Under the pieces are notes generated by a model. That model made no database searches and had not been told where the DNA came from. It saw only the letters and a list, made by a program, of their open reading frames with translations. Shown here one piece after another: positions 34,927 to 63,572 of a DNA stretch of 64,000 nt; position 1 is the first letter of the stretch; each line of letters begins with the position of its first letter. Location: positions 1 through 64,000 of the forward strand of contig JAJTHN010000036.1 in the NCBI GenBank assembly GCA_021297895.1, read 5' to 3'. Made by a program: the position numbers and the translations under genes. This DNA comes from Phycisphaeraceae bacterium. Lineage in GTDB: Bacteria; Planctomycetota; Phycisphaerae; Phycisphaerales; UBA1924.

Positions 34927-36300
34927 TCAGCGGGCCGGCGCAGCGCCCGGAGCCTGCCGGCTCTTCTGCTCGTTCTGCTGGCGGTACTTTTCGCGATATC
35001 GCTCGGCGAGGATCGTCTGCTTATTGCTCAGGTCCACCTCGCGCCCGGCGATGAACGCCCGAACTGTTCGCGTCTTGACCTCTAGCACATCGCCGTCGGT
35101 CAGGATCAGCGTCGCGTCCTTGCCCGGCTCGATCGAGCCCAGCCGGTCCTGCACGCCCAGCAACTGCGCCGGTGCCAGCGTGATCGCCCGGACCGCGTCC
35201 TCCCGCTTCATGCCGTGGGCCACGCAAATCGCCGCGGCGTACGGCAGGTTCCGCTCGTGCGGAGTCTCCTCTCCGCTGGCGATCGCCACGGGCACGCCCG
35301 CCTCCACCAGCAGCCGCGGGGCATCGAAGCCCTCGGTCACCGGTGAGTCGTCGCGCTTGGGCATGGTCAGCGGGCTGTTGAAGATCACCCCTGCGCGCGC
35401 GTCCTTGATCTGCTCAAGGCAGAGCGGCGCATCGCGCCCGCCCACGATCACCACGCGCACGCCGGCCTTTCTGCTCCAGGCAAGCGCCGCCAGAATCTGA
35501 TCCACGTCCTGCGCCTCGATGAACACCGGATTCTCCGCCGGCTTCTCGGCTGTGCCCAGCACGCTCCGCATCGCCTCCCACCGGATATCCGTCGGCGTCA
35601 TCGGCTCCGCGTCCTTGCGCGCGATGTACGCCCGCGCCGTTTCGAACGCCTTCTCCACCCGCTCCTGCCCCTGACGGATCCGCTTGAGCTGCTCCTCCTC
35701 GCTCTGATCCATCCACCACGCCCGCACCACCCGCATGAACGGCCACGACACGACCATGCCCGCGTCACGACGGACCGTCATGTCCTCCCACGTCCACCCG
35801 TCGGCGTGCGTCACGCTCACGCGACCGGCGATCACACCACCCTGCGGGAACACGCCAAAGGCCAGCACGCCGTTGCTCCGGGCCACCGGCATGAGCCACG
35901 AATCCGGGTTCACGCTCACCGCGGCGAAGACCTCCGGCGTCACATCGCCCACCTCGTTGAAGTCCCGCGACGCACGCACCGCGCCCATCTCCGTCAGGCC
36001 CATCTGTGTGTACGCGCTGATCAGCCCCGGATACAGCGTCAGGCCCTTGGCATCGATCACACTTCGCCTCGGGTCCGACGGCAGATCGCCCGCACCCATC
36101 GACGCGATCTTGCCCTGATCCATGATCACCCAGCCCCGATCGATCGGCTCGCGCGACACCGGCACGATGCGCGCATTGACGATCGCCACCGCGCCCGCCG
36201 GCGCCGGCAGTCGCGGCGTGAGATCCTGCGCGATCGCTCCGCCGGACGCGGCCAGCGCAATCAACCCTACGACCGAGAACACCCTGCTCGAAACGTTCAT
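34927..36300 (-). CDS. amidohydrolase-fold protein lacking the HxH metal motif (predicted inactive)
   Basis: 457-residue exported protein of the imidazolonepropionase-like amidohydrolase group. A signal peptide (VFSVVGLIALAASGGAIA) precedes the composite beta-sandwich/TIM-barrel fold. The usual PG(L/I)IDxHxH reads PGLISAYTQ at 91-99, so both first-strand metal ligands are gone. The late GxD that normally supplies the catalytic Asp reads ASGEE. The C-terminal family end is intact (LGSIEPGKDATLILTDGD), so the fold is kept. It follows the double-module gene by 45 bases on the same strand. A structural or partner subunit of the active module next door is the likeliest role; this is inference. Confidence 0.8.
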   Translation of the reverse strand: MNVSSRVFSVVGLIALAASGGAIAQDLTPRLPAPAGAVAIVNARIVPVSREPIDRGWVIMDQGKIASMGAGDLPSDPRRSVIDAKGLTLYPGLISAYTQMGLTEMGAVRASRDFNEVGDVTPEVFAAVSVNPDSWLMPVARSNGVLAFGVFPQGGVIAGRVSVTHADGWTWEDMTVRRDAGMVVSWPFMRVVRAWWMDQSEEEQLKRIRQGQERVEKAFETARAYIARKDAEPMTPTDIRWEAMRSVLGTAEKPAENPVFIEAQDVDQILAALAWSRKAGVRVVIVGGRDAPLCLEQIKDARAGVIFNSPLTMPKRDDSPVTEGFDAPRLLVEAGVPVAIASGEETPHERNLPYAAAICVAHGMKREDAVRAITLAPAQLLGVQDRLGSIEPGKDATLILTDGDVLEVKTRTVRAFIAGREVDLSNKQTILAERYREKYRQQNEQKSRQAPGAAPAR

Positions 36301-36345
36301 GCATGATCCGATCCGGCGCGCACGCCGATGAAGGTCACCGATCTC

Positions 36346-39300
36346 TCACCGTCCCATGTGCTCGTCGCAGCCGCAGACCCCGGCCCGATGATCCGCCGGG
36401 TTGATCCCGCGACGCATCATGTCCAGGAACAGTTCACGCCGCAGCCGCGTCGAGTCATCGACCATCGCCGCGATGAGTCCCCGCCGATCGCCCGTCCGCG
36501 GCGGCTTGTCCGACGGCGTATCCACCACTTCCTTCTTGACGGTCTCGCCTGCCCTATCGGGCGTCTTTGCTCCACCGGCTTCGCCGGCCTTGTCGCCCTT
36601 GTCGGTCTTCTGGCCGTCCTTGGGCTTCTTGTCACCGGCCAGCAGACGCTGAACGATCCGCGCTCGCTCTCGCGCGTTCTGCTCACGCAACTCCTTGTCC
36701 TTCTCCAGCGAGAACAGAAGCCTGCCATCGACGAACGTCGCCTCGCATCGGCTCGTGCTGCTCAGGGGCGAGCCTGACCAGATCACCACATCCGCGTCCT
36801 TGCCCGTTTCCAGCGACCCAACGCGCGACTCGACTCTCAGCTGCTTCGCGGGGTTGAGCGTCACGAACTTGAGCGCCTCTTCCTCGCTGACGCTGAACGT
36901 GCCATCCTTCTGCCAGCTGTACTTGTGGGCCTTGGCCGCCTCCACGTGCATCCGCCGCGCCAGTTCGTCGCTGTCGCTGTTGTACGACACCACCACACCC
37001 TGCTCGTGCATGATCGGCCCGGCGTACGGAATCCCGTCCTGCACCTCGACCTTGAAGCCCCACCAGTCGCTGAACAGCGATGCGCCGATCGCCTGCTGCC
37101 TGACGAACTCCGCGACCTTGTACCCCTCGAGGTTGTGCTGATACGTCCCGATCCGAATGCCGAACTCCGCGCAGAGCTGCGCGAGCATCTGCACCTCATC
37201 CTGACGATAACTGTGGCAGTGAATCAGCCGCGTGCCCGCGAGAATCTCCGCCATCGCCTCCAGTTCCAGGTCGCGCCGCGGCGGCACGCCCTGACGCCCG
37301 CCATCCTCGAACCGCTTCCACATCGCGGCGTATTCGCGCCCGGCGACAAAGCGATCCCGAATGATCGCCTCGACACCCATGCGCGTCTGCGGATACCGCG
37401 TGACGTTCCGGTCGCCCCAGTTGCTCTGCTTGGGGTTCTCGCCCAGCGCGAACTTCACGCCGGGCTTCGCGGCCTCCATGTGCATGTCATCCGGCCGCAC
37501 CGCGCCCCAGCGGACTTTGTTCGTCTGGCTCTGCCCGCCGATCGCGTTGGCCGAGCCGTGCAGGTTGTTCACGCTCGTCACGCCGCCGGCCAACTGGCGG
37601 TACCAGTTGATCGCATCGGGATTGGTCACATCCGCGATCCGAACCTCGCACGTGACCGCCTGCCCGGACTCGTTCACGCCCTTGCTGATCCCGGTGTGGC
37701 TGTGGCAATCGATGATCCCCGGCGTGACATGCTTGCCCTGCGCATCGATCACCCGATACTCGCTCCCGAACCGCGGCATGCTCGCACCCGGGCCGACATA
37801 CGCGATCACGCCGTCGCTCAAAAGCACCGCGCCATCGCGGATGATCCCCGCGGGGCCGCTGGTCCAGACCGTCGCGTTGATGATCGCCACACGCTCGGCC
37901 TTCGGATACTCCTTGATCGCATACGCGCCCAGCGGCAGACCCGGAAGCACTTCGGCGACCTGCGGCTTGACTTCATCGTCTTCCTTCTCCGCCGCCCGTG
38001 CGCGCGCCCGCAGCACCGACTCGCGCTTGGTCGGCGTCGCCCCCTCCACCCCCGCCGCCGCCGGCTCCTCCCACGTCTCGCGGATCACCAGCACATCCCC
38101 CTCGCGCAGCACCACCGCGCTGCGCCGCGGCGCTCCCTCGACCGCGCGCTCGAACGAACCGGCATTCGGCTCGCCCTTGGGCGAGACGCGCACCTTCTCG
38201 CCCTTGCTCTCGCTCTTCTTGCCCTCAGCGTCCTCGCTGACCAGCGTCACGCCGTCCCGCGTCACGATGATCGTCGTTCCCGCCTTCTCCTCCGGGTTGA
38301 TCGCGACACCATCGCGCTCGAACACCCGCCACGTTCCGACCAGCCCCGAGGCGGGCCGACGGACACCCGACACGGCCGCACGCTGGCCATCGGCCCGGAC
38401 GATCATCCCGCGCAGCGTCGCCGCCGTCGTGTCGAAGGTCACCAGACCGGTCAGCGTGAACACTCCCGGCTGCGCCTCGTCGAGTTTCTCGTGATCGAAC
38501 GCCAGCGACAGCCGCGTGCCCAGCACGCTCACCTCGGTCGCCTTGACCTGCTTCTCGCCGCGCGTCACGGTGATCGCGTTGCCCTCATCGACGATCAGCA
38601 GTCGCTCGGCCTCCGGCGCACCGGCCACCGTCAGGTCCCACGTTCCCTCCAGTTTCGTCGGCGCGGGCGTCACCTCATGCCGAAGCCCATCGATCCAGGT
38701 CTCGCGGACCTTCGTCTTCTTCTCGAGCATCGGCCCGTCGTACACCACAAAGCTCGCCCGCTTGCCCGCGTCGAGCGTGCCCAGTTGATCCTCCACCCCC
38801 AGCAGCCGCGCCGGCTCAACGGTCAGGCTCGCCAGCGCCTGTTCGTTCGTCAGCCCGTGCCGGATCGCCGTGCGGAGCCGATCCGGGAACTGCCCGCGAT
38901 CCTTGATCTTCGATGTCGTGATCGCGAACGACACCCCCGCCTGCGCAAGCCGCCGCGCGTTTGTCGGCGACTGCTCCCACATCATCAACTCGCGCAGGTC
39001 CACCGCCTCGGCATCTCCAAGGCTCGCCACCCGCGGCTTCTCGACGTAGTTCAACGGCACAACCAGCCCGATCCCCTTCCCACCCGCGTGCGCCTCGCTG
39101 ATCGCCTCCAGGCGACGAAAGTCCGTCCCGCCCGTCACCACCACCGCCGGACGCGCAAACTCCCGCGCGATCTTCGCCGCACGCAGAACCTCCAGTTCAT
39201 CCTCGACCGTGAACATCAGGCCCGCAACGCTCCCGTCGCGCTTGCCCAGAGGCGCCAGCGCGTTGACCCCGAGGTCCACCGTCGTTCGCGCCGCATCCAC

Positions 39301-40068
39301 CGCGCCGCCGGCACCGAGCCCGGCGACATAATCCGCATCGCTCAGCGTCTGGCGGATCAGCGCGATCGCCCCCATCTGCGAATCCGGATACCCGCCCCAT
39401 CGCGAAACATCGCCATCGCCCCCGACCGTCTCGAACGCCACCGTCTGCATCCCCGAGGCCTTGTACACCGCGGGCTTGCGCTCGCTCGAATCCTCCGACT
39501 CCTGCGCCAGGCTCACCACCGCCGACGACCCGCGGAACACGCCACCCTTCGGCACGATCCCCGCCGCGACAAACCCCATTCCGCGCAACTGTCTGGCCGT
39601 GCCCTCATCTACACCCCGTCCGTCGGTCGCGTTGCGTTGCGGCATGACCCGTGCGCTCCAGTGCGCACCGGCGCGCTCGCCATCAACACGCGGCGACTCA
39701 ACCTCCAAATATGCCTCGATCAACCCCGGATAAATGTGCAGCCCCGCAGCGTCGCGCGTCAGCGCCCCGGCGGGCACCGGCGTGCTTGCCGAAGGCCCCA
39801 CGGCCACGATCACGCCGTCGCGCACGACCAATGTCGCATTCTCGATGACGAGTCCGGGCCCGACATGCACCGTCGCGTTGACCAGCGCCTCAAACCCGCG
39901 TCGCTCGGCTCCCGGGCGGTTCGCCGGCGGCAACAGCGGATCGGGCCGAACCTCCGGCTCCTGAGCGAACGCCGCACCCGGCCAGCCCAGCCCGCCCGCA
40001 CCAAGAACCACCGCCGCGGCGAGAATCCGGAGCACCCCCGCGCTCACGCACACATCTGCATTCATCAT
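36346..40068 (-). CDS. exported double-module amidohydrolase: degenerate module fused to an HxH-containing module
   Basis: About 1,240 residues. A signal peptide (LRILAAAVVLGAGGLGWPGAAFA) precedes module 1 (about 60-500), where the HxH site reads PGLIEAYLE (114-122) and metal ligands are absent. Its family end is kept (LGTLDAGKRASFVVYDG). A middle beta-rich linker with repeated strands (about 500-720) carries Lys/Glu-rich patches. Module 2 (about 740-1150) has HxH in PGIIDCHSHTG near 788, IHCHSYR near 951 and YQHNLEGYK, so metal binding is plausible. The end is Lys/Asp-rich and disordered. ATG 40068 is chosen: a TAGGCT box ends 7 bases before it and the signal peptide follows. Substrate unknown; peptidase-like or cyclic-amide hydrolysis are possible for this group. 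Confidence 0.8.
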   Translation of the reverse strand: MMNADVCVSAGVLRILAAAVVLGAGGLGWPGAAFAQEPEVRPDPLLPPANRPGAERRGFEALVNATVHVGPGLVIENATLVVRDGVIVAVGPSASTPVPAGALTRDAAGLHIYPGLIEAYLEVESPRVDGERAGAHWSARVMPQRNATDGRGVDEGTARQLRGMGFVAAGIVPKGGVFRGSSAVVSLAQESEDSSERKPAVYKASGMQTVAFETVGGDGDVSRWGGYPDSQMGAIALIRQTLSDADYVAGLGAGGAVDAARTTVDLGVNALAPLGKRDGSVAGLMFTVEDELEVLRAAKIAREFARPAVVVTGGTDFRRLEAISEAHAGGKGIGLVVPLNYVEKPRVASLGDAEAVDLRELMMWEQSPTNARRLAQAGVSFAITTSKIKDRGQFPDRLRTAIRHGLTNEQALASLTVEPARLLGVEDQLGTLDAGKRASFVVYDGPMLEKKTKVRETWIDGLRHEVTPAPTKLEGTWDLTVAGAPEAERLLIVDEGNAITVTRGEKQVKATEVSVLGTRLSLAFDHEKLDEAQPGVFTLTGLVTFDTTAATLRGMIVRADGQRAAVSGVRRPASGLVGTWRVFERDGVAINPEEKAGTTIIVTRDGVTLVSEDAEGKKSESKGEKVRVSPKGEPNAGSFERAVEGAPRRSAVVLREGDVLVIRETWEEPAAAGVEGATPTKRESVLRARARAAEKEDDEVKPQVAEVLPGLPLGAYAIKEYPKAERVAIINATVWTSGPAGIIRDGAVLLSDGVIAYVGPGASMPRFGSEYRVIDAQGKHVTPGIIDCHSHTGISKGVNESGQAVTCEVRIADVTNPDAINWYRQLAGGVTSVNNLHGSANAIGGQSQTNKVRWGAVRPDDMHMEAAKPGVKFALGENPKQSNWGDRNVTRYPQTRMGVEAIIRDRFVAGREYAAMWKRFEDGGRQGVPPRRDLELEAMAEILAGTRLIHCHSYRQDEVQMLAQLCAEFGIRIGTYQHNLEGYKVAEFVRQQAIGASLFSDWWGFKVEVQDGIPYAGPIMHEQGVVVSYNSDSDELARRMHVEAAKAHKYSWQKDGTFSVSEEEALKFVTLNPAKQLRVESRVGSLETGKDADVVIWSGSPLSSTSRCEATFVDGRLLFSLEKDKELREQNARERARIVQRLLAGDKKPKDGQKTDKGDKAGEAGGAKTPDRAGETVKKEVVDTPSDKPPRTGDRRGLIAAMVDDSTRLRRELFLDMMRRGINPADHRAGVCGCDEHMGR

Positions 40069-41654: not shown

Positions 41655-43685
41655 TCACTTCTTGCCGCCATCTCCGGTCCGCGGCGGGATCGGCACCACG
41701 AAACTCGACGGACGATCTGTCGCGGGTCCCGGCGTGCCGGCCGCGGGCCGGGGGTTGTCTTCAAGCAGACGGACCCGCTCGTTTTCCTCCCCGCGCGTGC
41801 TCTCGCTCTCGGGCCGGTCCGCCACCGCTCCCGCCGCGGCGACCTCCGTCAGGCGTGCCAGCAGCCGATCGCGTTCGGTCGCGAACGCCGCGTTGATCCC
41901 GCGGGCCTTCTGCACCTGATACAGCGCCCCGACCACCTCGGAGTACGTCATCGAAAGACCCGGCTCGGGCTCATCGGCACGCGAGCTCGAGCCCAGGAAT
42001 CTGGCGAGTTTCCAGACCGTTTCGGGCACGACGGTCTGCACCGTGCGGGTCGAGCGGATGTCGCGGTAGAACAGTCGGACGCCCTGAGAGTCCGGCGTGC
42101 CCTCGGGTGTATCAAGATCCGCGGTGAGCATGAACCGGTCGCGCCAGGCCGAGACCAGCAGCGGCCGCTGCAACGCCATGTCCCGTCCGAAGATCACGAT
42201 CCGCGACTCGCCCTGCTGCGTGATGTAGATCAGCGGGTCGGTGCTGTCGACGATATCGATCGCGAAGCGACCGTCCACGTCGATCCGCGCGATTCCCGGA
42301 TCGCGACGCTCGACCAGAGCCTCGTACGCCGCGACGCGGATCTCCAGTTCGGGCGAACTGACAAGCCGGCGCAAGGCCTCATCGACGCGCGGATCGGTCC
42401 CCAGCCGTCCCAGCAGCGTGATCGCCTCCGTGCGCATCGCGATGCTCGGCCGCTCCCCCGCCGCCGTGCCCAGCGCCATCGCCGTCAGGTGCGGCACCGT
42501 CCGCGGGTCACCAAGTTCCGCGCCGACACGCAACGCCGCCATCCGCGGCAGGAATTCCGGATACTCATACAACGGCGCGACAAACGGGATCGACTCCTTG
42601 CCCAGCGCCACCAGACACGCCGAGAGTTCCTCCGCCATCGCGGGCATGGCCTTGAGTTCATCCGTGTACCGCTTGGCGTACTCCTGCGGGAACGCCAGGT
42701 CCGTCTGCGTATACGCCAGCAGCCGGACGAACTCGTCCGTCCGCGTGCGCCAGCGCCGCGGCACGCTGATGGTCAGCAGCGTGTCGTCGCGACCGGTCGC
42801 GGTCTTCTCCCGATCCTCCGGCCCCGCGGGCAGCCGGGAGTTGATCGCCGAAGCGATCGCGGCCACCCGCCCGTGGCTCGGGTTGTCAACGACGATCGTC
42901 ATCTCCAGCGCGTTGGTCACCTTGCCCCCGCCCAGCACGCGCCCCACCGTGCGCGTCACGCCGTCGTCGCCGCGGATCGCTCCCGCCGGGTCCGCAAAGG
43001 GGTTGATGAACACGGGGCCGTACGCCTCGGCGACCTTGCGCGTCCGCATCGATCCGAACGGCGAAGGCGGCCCCAGGTGCAGATCCGTCGTCCACAGCAT
43101 CCCGCCCTCAAGGCTCGTCGTGCTGCTTCCCGGCAGCGATCGCACACGAACATCGAACGTGGTCGACTCCGGGCTGCCCGGCGAAATCACCGCCTCGACC
43201 ACGACCACCGCGACGCGATTGTCGGCGAGGAATTGCTTGGGCGTCACGCCCGCCAGATCCCCGCCCTCCATCGCCGAACCCTTGCCGATGCCCCGCCGCG
43301 AGAGTTCCCGCTCCATCGTCGCCTGAATCGCCTCGGGATACGGCCCGCCCCCGGTCTCGGCCAGCCCGACAACCACGCCGAAGCCCGACACGAGCGTCGG
43401 CTCTCGCCCCTGAATCGACGCCATCGATGAGATCGTCCCGCGCAGAACCGCCGGCACGTCGCGGATGATCGGATCCGCCTCGCGGGCGGTCTTCGGAGCC
43501 TTGACCGTGTTGTTGCACGACGGCAGCAGCACGCCCAGAGCCAGCAGGCCAGCCAGCCCGATCCCCTGCATCGCCAGCAGCGTGCCCCGCGTCAGCCCCT
43601 GGCCCTTCGCAAACACCCGGACATCCGCGCACCCGCCGATGTTCTGTGAGGTCGCCGACCGATCCTGCTTCGTCGCGCTGCGCAT
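41655..43685 (-). CDS. lipoprotein: FlgI (P-ring)-like domain joined to HEAT-like repeats
   Basis: About 676 residues. After a 40-residue basic N-terminus, a lipoprotein signal ends in a lipobox LLPSC (Cys57). Residues ~75-350 match flagellar P-ring protein FlgI in pattern: SGFGVVVGLAETGGG (like GYGLVVGLNGTGD), VVVVEAVISPGSPESTTFDV and LPGSSTTSLEGGMLWTTDL. Around 375-462 is an alpha-helical HEAT-like segment (LRRLVSSPELEIRVAAYEAL), then a beta-rich domain and a Pro-rich tail. True FlgI is ~370 residues with a cleaved Sec signal, so this is a lineage-specific relative. AGGAG lies 6 bases before ATG 43685. No flagellar genes adjoin; motAB is 10 kb away. Confidence 0.72.
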   Translation of the reverse strand: MRSATKQDRSATSQNIGGCADVRVFAKGQGLTRGTLLAMQGIGLAGLLALGVLLPSCNNTVKAPKTAREADPIIRDVPAVLRGTISSMASIQGREPTLVSGFGVVVGLAETGGGPYPEAIQATMERELSRRGIGKGSAMEGGDLAGVTPKQFLADNRVAVVVVEAVISPGSPESTTFDVRVRSLPGSSTTSLEGGMLWTTDLHLGPPSPFGSMRTRKVAEAYGPVFINPFADPAGAIRGDDGVTRTVGRVLGGGKVTNALEMTIVVDNPSHGRVAAIASAINSRLPAGPEDREKTATGRDDTLLTISVPRRWRTRTDEFVRLLAYTQTDLAFPQEYAKRYTDELKAMPAMAEELSACLVALGKESIPFVAPLYEYPEFLPRMAALRVGAELGDPRTVPHLTAMALGTAAGERPSIAMRTEAITLLGRLGTDPRVDEALRRLVSSPELEIRVAAYEALVERRDPGIARIDVDGRFAIDIVDSTDPLIYITQQGESRIVIFGRDMALQRPLLVSAWRDRFMLTADLDTPEGTPDSQGVRLFYRDIRSTRTVQTVVPETVWKLARFLGSSSRADEPEPGLSMTYSEVVGALYQVQKARGINAAFATERDRLLARLTEVAAAGAVADRPESESTRGEENERVRLLEDNPRPAAGTPGPATDRPSSFVVPIPPRTGDGGKK

Positions 43686-43979
43686 GGACAACTCCTGCCC
43701 GCCACCCGATAGGCCCACGCCGGATTGTTGCACACCCGTCGCCCCGCCGACGACATGCCTCCCGGCCCCATTCCGCCGCGGATCGGAAGGGCGCGGAGTC
43801 GGCGATGAAGATCCGGATCGGCGGACGCCCTCCCGCCGCGCCCCACCCTACTCCCGAGCATCACGGGAGTTCGTCGGTCCGGTCCGGCTGAACACCCGCC
43901 GAGACCCGCGCGCCGTGGGTTTTCATCCCTGCTCAGCACTGCGCGATGTCGTGCGGATCGCGCATCGGGCGCGTGCCGC
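43686..43979. other. gap between the zinc-ribbon gene and the FlgI-like lipoprotein gene
   Basis: About 290 bases with no convincing gene. AGGAG for the lipoprotein start is at its left edge. No clear promoter or hairpin was found. Confidence 0.35.
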
Positions 43980-60763: not shown

Positions 60764-62065
60764 TCATCGGGGCTGATCGCTGACGATCTGGCCGTCGATC
60801 ACGACGCCGATGCATCGTGTGGTGTACTCAAACGGGTCGCCGGAGTACAGCGCCAGGTCCGCGTCCTTGCCGGGCTCGAGCGAGCCCACGCGGCTGTCGA
60901 TGCGGAGGATGCGTGCCGCGTCGATGGTGATCGTGGCCAGGGCATCCTGCTGGCTCATGCCGTTTGCCGCGGCGATCGCGGCCTCGAGAAGGATGATGCG
61001 GGCCTTGGGCACGTACGCCTCGTAGCCGCTCTGGATCGCGACGGTGATGCCCGCGGCCTTGAGTTTGGCGGCGGTCTCGAAACTGGCGTTCTCCGTCTCG
61101 CCGACGGCGCGCATCATCATCGGGTGCAGCACGACGGGCACGCCGGCCTGCTTGATCTGCTCGATCATCGTGCCGGCCTCGCACGCGCCATCGAGGATGA
61201 GGTCGAGCTCGAACTCCTCCTTCAGCCGCAGGGCCGAGGCGATGTCCTGCGCACGATGCGCGGTGATGGCGATCGGCAGCTCGCGCTCCAGCACGCGAAC
61301 GAACATCTCCGTGCGGAGGTTGCGCTCCGGGGGCTTTGGCGCATCCTCGGGCTTGGCGTCGGGCTTGGCCCGGTGTGCGGCGAGTTTGTCGGCGTGGCTC
61401 TTGAGCGCGCGGCGATGCTCCTGGGCCTTGATGAGTTCAGCCCGGAGCATGGCCATCTGCTTGGCCCGGGTGCCCGGTGACTTGCCGCCGTCCTTGAGCG
61501 CCTGCTGCGAGAGCGTGGCGGCGACCATCGAGGTGGGGCGGACGGTGGCGGCGTCGACGGTGTCGCCCCGGAGCTTGACGATGAGGGTCTGGCCCGAGAC
61601 CAGCTCGCCCGGGGCGTGGCCGGTGTTGACGGTGGTGATACCGAAGGAACGGGTGAAGGCGACCAGGGGCTCCTGCGGGTTGTAGGCGTCCAGGGCACGG
61701 AGTTCGGGCTGGACCGGGGCGGAGCGCTCGAGCTGATCCGAGTCATGTCGCGAGTTGGTGATGCCGGAAAGGCCGAGGGTTGAACGGGCGTCGACCAGAC
61801 CGGGGGTGACGACCTTCGCGTTGATGGTGCGCGTGCCGGCGGGGATGGTGGTGCTAGCCAGCGGGCCGACGAGCGCGATCTTGCCCTTGTCGTCGATGAG
61901 CACCACGGCGTTGTCGATGGTGCCCGCCGGGCCCATGGTGAACACTCGCTCGCCGATGATGGCCAGTTGGGCGAGCGCGCCGGTGGCGAGCGTGAGGCTG
62001 AGGGCCACGGCCAGCGCAGCGCGATGGGCAAGACCGGACGGGCGGCGGTTGGTGAGCGTGTTCAC
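60764..62065 (-). CDS. amidohydrolase-fold protein lacking the HxH motif (predicted inactive)
   Basis: 433 residues, exported (signal AALAVALSLTLATGALA). Amidohydrolase composite fold with the family end LGSLEPGKDADLALYSGDPF. The metal motif reads PGLVDARST at 88-96 in place of PG-DxHxH. The third-strand His is kept (ITAHRAQD), but the fourth reads LDGACE and the final Asp position QSGYEA. So most metal ligands are gone. An insert of Lys/Pro/Ala-rich sequence (about 190-230) is extra. GTG 62065 is the start, with a weak GGAAA upstream. It follows the active paralogue by 46 bases on the same strand, so the two are co-expressed and may form a heteromer. Confidence 0.82.
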   Translation of the reverse strand: MNTLTNRRPSGLAHRAALAVALSLTLATGALAQLAIIGERVFTMGPAGTIDNAVVLIDDKGKIALVGPLASTTIPAGTRTINAKVVTPGLVDARSTLGLSGITNSRHDSDQLERSAPVQPELRALDAYNPQEPLVAFTRSFGITTVNTGHAPGELVSGQTLIVKLRGDTVDAATVRPTSMVAATLSQQALKDGGKSPGTRAKQMAMLRAELIKAQEHRRALKSHADKLAAHRAKPDAKPEDAPKPPERNLRTEMFVRVLERELPIAITAHRAQDIASALRLKEEFELDLILDGACEAGTMIEQIKQAGVPVVLHPMMMRAVGETENASFETAAKLKAAGITVAIQSGYEAYVPKARIILLEAAIAAANGMSQQDALATITIDAARILRIDSRVGSLEPGKDADLALYSGDPFEYTTRCIGVVIDGQIVSDQPR

Positions 62066-62111
62066 GGGTGTGTTTCCGGGTCGGCGGGGAGAGGCGATGC
62101 GGACGAATGTG

Positions 62112-63572
62112 TTACTTGGCCTGTGTGTCGGCGGCATCGGTTGCAGCGGAGTTGCCGCCGCCGAATTGATACTGCTGGCCCTTGAACGCGAACGAGCCGG
62201 AGCCGAAGCAGCAGAAATACGGCTCCTGATCACGCCCCGCGCCCCAGCCGCCGACCGCGTGAAGGCGGTCGACGGGGCGAGAGCGGTCGAAGACCAGCGA
62301 GCCCTCGACCCATGTCTGCTCGACTTTGGTGTACACGCTGAACGGGTCGCCCGAGAGGATGACCAGGTCGGCATCCTTGCCGGGCGTGAGCGTGCCGATG
62401 CGGTCCTGAAGGTCCATCATGATCGCGCCGTTGATGGTCAGGGCCTTGATGGCGCTGTCGCGCTTCATGCCCGCGCGGACGGCCAGCGCGGCCATGCGCA
62501 GGAACAGGCGCGAGTCGGTGATCCAGTCATCCGTGTGGAAGCAGACGAGCACGCCGGCCTCATCGAGGATCCTGCCCGTGTCGTAGTTCAGATTGACGGC
62601 CTCGAGCTTTCCGCCGGGAGAGTCGATGAGAATGACCGAGCAGCCCAGCACGCGGCCCGCATCCTGGGCTTCCTTGATCTGAGCGGGAATGAGCGAGGCC
62701 TCGCTGACGTGCTGAAGCACCACGCGAAGATTGAACTCCTCGCTGATGCGAAGGACGGTGGCGATGTCATCGGCGCGGTGGGTGTGGTGGTGGATGATCG
62801 CGCTGCGGCTGAGCGCCTTGCCCAGCGCCTCCTTGCCGAGGTCGCGCGCGGGGACCTTCTCGGCGTTGACGGTGCCGTCGGGCGCGGTGGCCTCGGCGAG
62901 TTTGCGGGCGTATTGCTGGGCGTCGATGAACATCTGGCGGACGATCGCGGCGTGCTTGCCGCGGGTGCTGCTGAACGGCGCATCGCGCATCGGGTTGGTG
63001 CCGTTGGCCATCTTGATCCCGCCGGCGATGGTGCCGTCGGCGTTGCGGATGGCAAGATCCTCGATGCGGACAACCACGCCGTCGCGCGGCTCTGCGCCGG
63101 GCACGGCGCGAAGCTTGACGTAGACCGTCTGGCCCGAGAGCAGGTGGCCCGAGCCGGGCATGATGTTCAGGGTGGTCAGGCCTCCGGCGAGCGCGCGGCG
63201 GAAGCCGGAGTCGGCCGGGTTGATCGAGTCCATTACGCGCACATCGGGCTGAACGGTGCTCGAACCGTCGGCACCGGCGATGCCGCCGAGATGGCTGTGG
63301 GTATCGACGATGCCCGGCATGATGACCTTGCCGGCGCAATCGATACGCTTGGCGTCCACAGCAATCGCGGTCGTCGCGGCGGGGCCGACGGCCACGATCT
63401 TGCCCTTGTGCACGACGACGACGCCGGCGTCGATCTCCGGCGCATCGACCGGAATGACGCGGGCACCGGTGAAGGCGACCGGTGTCTCCTGAGCCTGTGC
63501 GCACTCAACGCCGTGCATGAGCGCGAACGCGACCATGACCGGCACGCATCGACGAATTGATCGGGGGTCCAT
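62112..63572 (-). CDS. exported metal-dependent amidohydrolase (HxH present)
   Basis: 486 residues, imidazolonepropionase-like amidohydrolase group. A signal peptide (PVMVAFALMHGVECAQA) precedes the composite domain. Metal ligands are all in place: DTHSHLGG (HxH at 92-94), HHHTHRADD, LQHVSEA and the final Asp in CFHTDD. The family end is LTPGKDADLVILSGDPF. The C-terminal ~45 residues are an unusual Gly/Phe/Gln-rich tail with a CC pair (YFCCFGSGSFAF). ATG 63572 has a TATGCT box ending 6 bases upstream and no Shine-Dalgarno sequence. Substrate unknown. It is first in a two-gene unit with the degenerate paralogue. Confidence 0.88.
   Translation of the reverse strand: MDPRSIRRCVPVMVAFALMHGVECAQAQETPVAFTGARVIPVDAPEIDAGVVVVHKGKIVAVGPAATTAIAVDAKRIDCAGKVIMPGIVDTHSHLGGIAGADGSSTVQPDVRVMDSINPADSGFRRALAGGLTTLNIMPGSGHLLSGQTVYVKLRAVPGAEPRDGVVVRIEDLAIRNADGTIAGGIKMANGTNPMRDAPFSSTRGKHAAIVRQMFIDAQQYARKLAEATAPDGTVNAEKVPARDLGKEALGKALSRSAIIHHHTHRADDIATVLRISEEFNLRVVLQHVSEASLIPAQIKEAQDAGRVLGCSVILIDSPGGKLEAVNLNYDTGRILDEAGVLVCFHTDDWITDSRLFLRMAALAVRAGMKRDSAIKALTINGAIMMDLQDRIGTLTPGKDADLVILSGDPFSVYTKVEQTWVEGSLVFDRSRPVDRLHAVGGWGAGRDQEPYFCCFGSGSFAFKGQQYQFGGGNSAATDAADTQAK

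Follow-up and report, generated by a model that had tools for sequence, protein, structure and literature searches.

Why would a bacterium keep two amidohydrolase modules devoid of a metal site next to one whose site is complete? This question is raised by a pair of minus-strand genes, with 45 bp between them, in a stretch of 64,000 nucleotides (the window: positions 1 to 64,000 of contig JAJTHN010000036.1) from a Phycisphaeraceae bacterium of the phylum Planctomycetota, the source assembly of which (GCA_021297895.1) comprises 3.48 Mb in 84 contigs. Gene 1 codes for modules A and B and gene 2 for module C, with the following parts.

36346-40068, minus strand: gene 1, two-module protein A-B of 1240 amino acids (aa); ATG at 40068, signal-like N-terminus ending in AFAQ (read by eye)
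38665-39894, minus strand: module A, a degenerate amidohydrolase barrel without metal ligands (from the alignment; the AlphaFold2 predicted local distance difference test score, pLDDT, is mostly >90)
39703-39717, minus strand: EAYLE, the module A counterpart of HxH (column compared with B)
37924-38664, minus strand: middle region between A and B, a predicted beta-strand domain of ~95 residues followed by ~100 low-confidence residues (AlphaFold2 secondary structure and pLDDT)
36685-37923, minus strand: module B, an amidohydrolase with a complete metal site (Pfam, PDB match, ligand alignment)
37690-37710, minus strand: DCHSHTG, the HxH site of module B (located in the sequence)
36964-37224, minus strand: strand-5 His (IHCHSY), strand-6 His (YQHNLEG) and strand-8 Asp (YNSDSDE) of module B (ligand alignment)
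34927-36300, minus strand: gene 2, coding for module C, a degenerate amidohydrolase of 457 aa with a signal-like N-terminus ending in IAQ; 45 bp separate it from gene 1
36004-36018, minus strand: SAYTQ, the module C counterpart of HxH (column compared with B)

Our answer is that the products of this locus probably form an exported assembly of one active module, B, and two built-in pseudoenzyme partners, A and C. We are less sure of the specific role of these two partners.

The three modules belong to the amidohydrolase superfamily by homology and fold. Both proteins score above the Pfam amidohydrolase cut-offs (PF01979/PF07969): the gene 1 protein reaches 99.3 bits (cut-off 25), with its best stretch within B, and the stretches of A and C pass the cut-off alone (44.8 and 41.7 bits). 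In the Pfam scan of the gene 1 protein no family was listed for the middle region (37924-38664), the length of which varies among lineages. The best PDB sequence relative of both B (E 4e-45) and C (E 2.3e-32, 384 residues aligned) is 3ooq of Thermotoga, which we take to be TM0814 of Thermotoga maritima. For B, 3ooq is also the closest solved relative by fold, and B thus conforms to the (beta/alpha)8 barrel with a flanking beta sandwich that marks the superfamily. Unlike A and C, it keeps HxH and the other His and Asp places in the alignment, and it is a single module. We found no paper on the 3ooq structure in a search of the full-text literature.

Five aligned positions, the two His of HxH, the strand-5 His, the strand-6 His and the strand-8 Asp (HHHHD), are presumably the metal ligands of the superfamily. 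Window B keeps all five of them. The corresponding places read EAYLE, LMFTVED, VVTGG and ITTSK in window A, and SAYTQ, IEAQD, IVGGR and ASGEE in window C. A sequence-only reading of this DNA had pointed out EAYLE in the first module and an intact DCHSHTG in the second module of the double-module protein, as well as SAYTQ in a third module encoded by the next gene, and all three motifs are where it placed them. Its claim that HxH is lost in A and C also holds, but the loss is wider than it noted, as all five ligand places are affected. In the rows of the window and its order, modules matching <150 query residues having been dropped, HHHHD is found in 32/32 B rows and is complete in 0/30 A and 0/31 C rows, in which scattered single ligand letters match, with a maximum of two per row. 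B also has an invariant Lys (module position 157) and an invariant Glu (position 162). Glu at 162 occurs in no A row and in 4/31 C rows, and at 157 Lys falls outside the top three letters in both A and C. Thus, the whole site is gone in A and C, not HxH alone.

The same picture emerged from all the rows gathered. All five ligands are present in 148 of the 150 B rows, the two exceptions being a cut row and a 62-residue fragment hit from locus L230 that has no ligands. A (n=148) keeps none in 122 rows, one in 23 and two in 3. C (n=145, one row being a distant cluster module of locus L239) keeps none in 67 rows, one in 70 and two in 8. That the pattern recurs to this extent (148 rows for A, 150 for B and 145 for C) rules out chance or an annotation artefact. 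To judge from these alignments, A and C cannot act as ordinary metal hydrolases.

We determined how widely the trio occurs. Within the window's family and order, 34 of 41 genomes (its own included) match gene 1 at E 0.001, two of these matches being weak. In a sample of 294 genomes of the phylum, the C-module profile matches 139 and the A-module profile 119 at E 1e-20 or better, tallies that include relatives such as the second locus described below. Forty Planctomycetota loci were picked by hand from the phylum profile matches to spread over families. In 20 of them A-B form one frame and C another, in ten A-B-C are coded in one frame, and in eight A stands alone before a B-C frame; the last two are a cut locus (L129) and one with B and C in separate frames and no recognised A (L144). 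All 40 have HHHHD in B, and none has a complete A or C row.

For a wider collection, the A-module profile was run against one genome per GTDB species, which gave at least 594 stretches, 583 of them encoding a relative, and the best 80 were kept. They come from Bacteroidota (38), Pseudomonadota (19), Planctomycetota (11), Zixibacteria (5) and, with one metagenome-assembled record each, Ignavibacteriota, Acidobacteriota, Gemmatimonadota and Verrucomicrobiota; three are unlabelled. The layout with A-B in one frame and C in the other is found in all eight labelled phyla of this best-80 collection. B has HHHHD in 76/77 cases (the last one is cut), and a complete site is found in 0/80 A and 0/64 C modules. 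At least eight bacterial phyla thus have the trio of one active and two inactive modules, which is old and widespread. The alignment of homologues that had been suggested for the degenerate sites shows them to be conserved across species, over at least these eight phyla.

The three modules are also tightly linked. Of the 80 loci, 64 have C beside A-B, invariably on the same strand and, in 60/64, with <200 bp between the frames. The other 16 genomes were searched whole, and C is present in 9/9 of those with room for it beside A-B and in 7/7 of those with cut contigs (three of these seven loci hold A only). A and C are therefore both present in the genomes of all 80 loci, and the C modules read from the whole-genome searches are degenerate as well. 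C is likewise present in G008, G014 and G021, three members of the window's family in which a contig end interrupts the locus. Beyond the trio, the next conserved neighbours form single-phylum clusters among the 14 largest clusters, except for one that groups 13 Pseudomonadota loci and one Bacteroidota locus; these 14 clusters gave no functional hint from neighbours shared widely across phyla.

Structure prediction, which had been proposed for the modules singly and together, yielded confident chains. The AlphaFold2 model of window A-B (1080 aa, 54 sequences) has a mean pLDDT of 83.9 and a predicted template modelling score (pTM, which refers to a single chain) of 0.83; both barrels are mostly >90 in pLDDT, and ~100 middle residues are <50. 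For a natural A-B-C fusion, that of locus L132 (both ends trimmed, 1200 aa), the values are 86.2 and 0.85. From the latter pTM, we infer that the three modules of ~400 residues of this chain are confidently placed relative to each other. By fold, B matches 3ooq with Z 43.4 and a root mean square deviation (rmsd) of 2.1 over 375 aligned residues in the window model, and with Z 48.0 and rmsd 2.0 over 368 in L132. A matches the dihydroorotase 1xrt (Z 21.6, rmsd 3.6, 290 aligned, model residues 8-419), tied at Z 21.6 with many other families; these include prolidases, isoaspartyl dipeptidases and deaminases, among others, so that a substrate is not assignable from the fold. The barrel fold is thus retained in the degenerate modules, as the sequence-only reading had it, given the match of A to 1xrt and the alignment of C to 3ooq.

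We analysed the selection acting on the modules by the ratio of nonsynonymous to synonymous substitution rates (dN/dS) in the 10 of 36 pairs with dS <1.2 in all three modules, dS being saturated or high in the other 26. For these ten non-independent pairs, drawn from three lineages of planctomycetes, dN/dS ranges over 0.12-0.21 in A, 0.07-0.19 in B and 0.11-0.29 in C. By this measure, A, B and C are all under purifying selection in the ten close pairs. Conservation and dN/dS together rule out decay or sequencing error, and the earlier verdict of 'selected, not decay' is borne out by a degenerate state common to at least eight phyla and by ratios well below 1. Over 123 loci (modules of <330 residues were dropped before this comparison), the mean distances are 1.35 for A, 1.14 for C and 0.70 for B. 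A and C each have conserved blocks of their own. In C, near-invariant residues form LGLxEIxAVRATxDxxE, a loop that follows strand 1, and RNLP, close to strand 8; in A, they form an RQxxxDA helix and are the W and N of WExxPxN. Mirror-tree correlations are 0.73-0.80, but shared species history is uncontrolled in them, and we did not use them as evidence of contact.

The window harbours a second amidohydrolase locus, a related but separate system, with two modules.

62112-63572, minus strand: module D, an amidohydrolase with a complete ligand set (ligand alignment)
60764-62137, minus strand: module E, a degenerate amidohydrolase and the partner of D (ligand alignment)

Similar to the trio, D-E is an active amidohydrolase beside a degenerate one, or elsewhere in one frame with it; in contrast to the trio, it has one inactive partner, not two, and D and E are on branches of their own. 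Of 20 Planctomycetota loci, chosen from matches mostly lying in pairs, 13 have D and E side by side, four (L234, L235, L243 and L244) have both in a single open frame, one shows D only, and the last two, L230 and L239, are clusters. E keeps at most one of the five ligands (28 rows). The row counts for D and E include distant or partial modules from the clusters of L230 (G013:C28) and L239 (G027:C21), which are rows of seven and eight amidohydrolase-like frames. In these clusters, one module keeps four of the five ligands, and the other readable modules are degenerate.

Trees were built to place these modules relative to each other. A, B and C each fall on one side of a branch, with Shimodaira-Hasegawa approximate likelihood ratio test (SH-aLRT) values of 100, 100 and 99, and these branches remain when the ligand columns and their neighbours are removed (100/100, 100/100 and 100/99). 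In the tree without ligand columns, A is joined with C, apart from all others, at 93/86, and the two probably share one degenerate ancestor. The nearest group to B is D, the active module of the second locus, at a modest 90/72. An origin of A or C by recent duplication of B was rejected by approximately unbiased (AU) tests, run without the ligand columns and their neighbours on groups named after earlier trees had been seen: p-AU is 0.0016 for a tree with A, B and C together and 0.0166 for one with A and B together. Given these rejections and the grouping of A with C, neither inactive module seems to have been copied recently from its active partner. A single inactive lineage of A, C and E has an SH-aLRT of 99.8 with the ligand columns but only 72/46 without them, and we do not claim it; E as a direct copy of D was not rejected (p-AU 0.157). 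Long branches may affect all of these tree results. The rows left out of the larger tree are three outgroup rows, A_L140, E_L233, D_L233, two cluster rows and the A, B and C rows of six loci; the ligand-free tree was thinned to 55 rows. One misread row (L112) had already been removed.

These trees leave room for a scenario that we take seriously but stop just short of favouring. Active-inactive pairing may be ancestral to a whole class of exported amidohydrolases, with an active lineage (B and D) and an inactive lineage (A, C and perhaps E) that split before the present systems arose. Their descendants would have been kept together in layouts of one active to two inactive modules (A-B-C), one to one (D-E) and larger clusters (L230 and L239). 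If so, heteromers of enzyme and pseudoenzyme would be the rule rather than the exception for this class in at least eight phyla.

As to the trio itself, the complex of two pseudoenzymes per active enzyme predicted by the sequence-only reading is favoured by the natural fusions and splits, by the presence of A and C in the genomes of all 80 loci and by the confident AlphaFold2 chains. Export of both proteins is likely because of their signal-like N-termini (FAQ and IAQ endings); such N-termini were read by eye on both genes in the 11 loci examined for them. The products would thus form an exported, probably periplasmic, three-module amidohydrolase assembly in which B is the only metal-dependent hydrolase and would cleave an amide-type or peptide-like bond outside the cytoplasm. 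A, in the same chain, and C, from the next gene, would be old pseudoenzymes that have kept the barrel fold and are packed on B as one particle. Their part is most likely structural and allosteric: they may stabilise B, and may shape the way into its active site or gate it.

A number of points weigh against this assembly. The trio is not universal, as gene 1 has no match at E 0.001 in 7 of the 41 genomes from its own family and order, and the 80 loci were both found and ranked by the A-module profile, so that a B without A would not show. Some of the layouts with A apart from a B-C frame are in metagenome-assembled genomes and could conceal a frameshift. The models are of single chains (end-trimmed for L132), and we infer the binding of a separately encoded C to A-B from fusions in other lineages; the case as a whole is computational. 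A evolves about twice as fast as B. No homologue of A or C has a complete site among the 148 A and 145 C rows, but a literal HxH (SHSHMG) survives in the C modules of two planctomycete loci, L179 and L211. In L179 C the other ligands are lost, and L211 C ends before the other ligand places; this HxH may be a remnant of an active ancestor. Lastly, C lies away from A-B in 9 of the 80 collection genomes although there is room for it. These nine genomes, and one of the window's family (G024) in which C is ~130 kb from A-B on the same contig, would also fit a C that is a separate protein of the same pathway and does not touch A-B, its linkage being an operon effect. We regard this as improbable, given that B-C form one frame in eight loci and A-B-C in ten, and that the L132 fusion model predicts confident packing. 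Even less credible, to the point that we give it almost no weight, is that A and C are decaying duplicates of B: they have lost the ligands, and A changes fastest, but their state is the same across phyla, dN/dS is well below 1 in the ten pairs, and the trees uniting A, B and C are rejected (p-AU 0.0016).

Two further explanations accept a complex and differ on what A and C bring to it. A neutral ratchet, by which a heteromer came to need site-less paralogous subunits with no regulatory gain, overlaps with the assembly that we propose and is hard to separate from it by sequence. The probable single degenerate ancestor of A and C, found at 93/86 without the ligand columns, and the repetition of active-inactive pairing in D-E would suit it; the strongly conserved blocks of A and C would not, and we hold it to be a possible but rather doubtful account. 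We consider it unlikely, more so than the ratchet, that A and C mainly have a new activity or bind something of their own, for instance to capture substrate or to take up another metal or a signal molecule. They do have near-invariant residues away from the dead ligands, and acids stand at the second HxH place and the strand-5 place in 48 of 148 A rows, some of which could conceivably hold an unusual cation site. However, this acid pair is present in only a third of the A rows, and among the near-invariant residues of A or C there is no conserved His-rich or complete alternative set of ligands. The absence of alternative ligands implied by the sequence-only reading thus stands for complete sets, with the acid pair of A as a qualification. 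A role of A and C that is mainly structural and allosteric remains the one we prefer.

Partnerships of enzymes with pseudoenzymes are already known, and the trio is a new, unusually old and widespread variant of them. ATCase, for one, is an enzyme unrelated to its partner, the pseudo-dihydroorotase (pDHO). In Pseudomonas, the pDHO chain, a dihydroorotase homologue, is described as inactive yet necessary for ATCase activity (PMC7053772), which we take as the precedent for the proposed role of A and C. The trio would be similar in joining an inactive chain to an enzyme that may need it, but the partner there is ATCase, whereas here it is another amidohydrolase, with two inactive modules. We did not encounter ATCase as a partner gene, the fused or adjacent partner being B and the flanks being PFK and DMT_6 genes; ATCase elsewhere in the genome was not searched for. 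Nor did C appear as a member of the dihydroorotase family. The NCBIfam dihydroorotase models score only 20-22 bits with C, for cut-offs of 279-728 (among the best 25 of 50 families), and the 33 PDB sequences listed with C as the query (E up to 1), of which 3ooq is the top one, include none named as a dihydroorotase. CRMPs, or dihydropyrimidinase-related proteins, are non-catalytic amidohydrolase-fold proteins kept by selection. They resemble A and C in this respect; unlike the trio, they are eukaryotic and cytosolic and are not joined in one chain to an active module. Human CRMP-5 (4b90) appears among the fold matches of the L132 model. The full-text literature searched, which leaves out most subscription journals, contains no description of a tandem or pseudo amidohydrolase of this kind.

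Gene products of this kind match general amidohydrolase families only, and two of the three modules would not be usual metal hydrolases, so transferred annotation would mislead. Kept over long distances and provided with natural one-chain fusions, the trio offers a test bed for why enzymes keep dead copies: its parts can be removed one by one, and the fused forms that occur in nature can be set against the split ones.

The gene pair is isolated in the window, between opposite-strand genes for a phosphofructokinase (PFK family) upstream and a DMT-family (DMT_6) protein downstream. Further along, at 41655-43733 on the minus strand, the window codes for a homologue of FlgI (flagellar P-ring) that runs on into a HEAT-repeat match.

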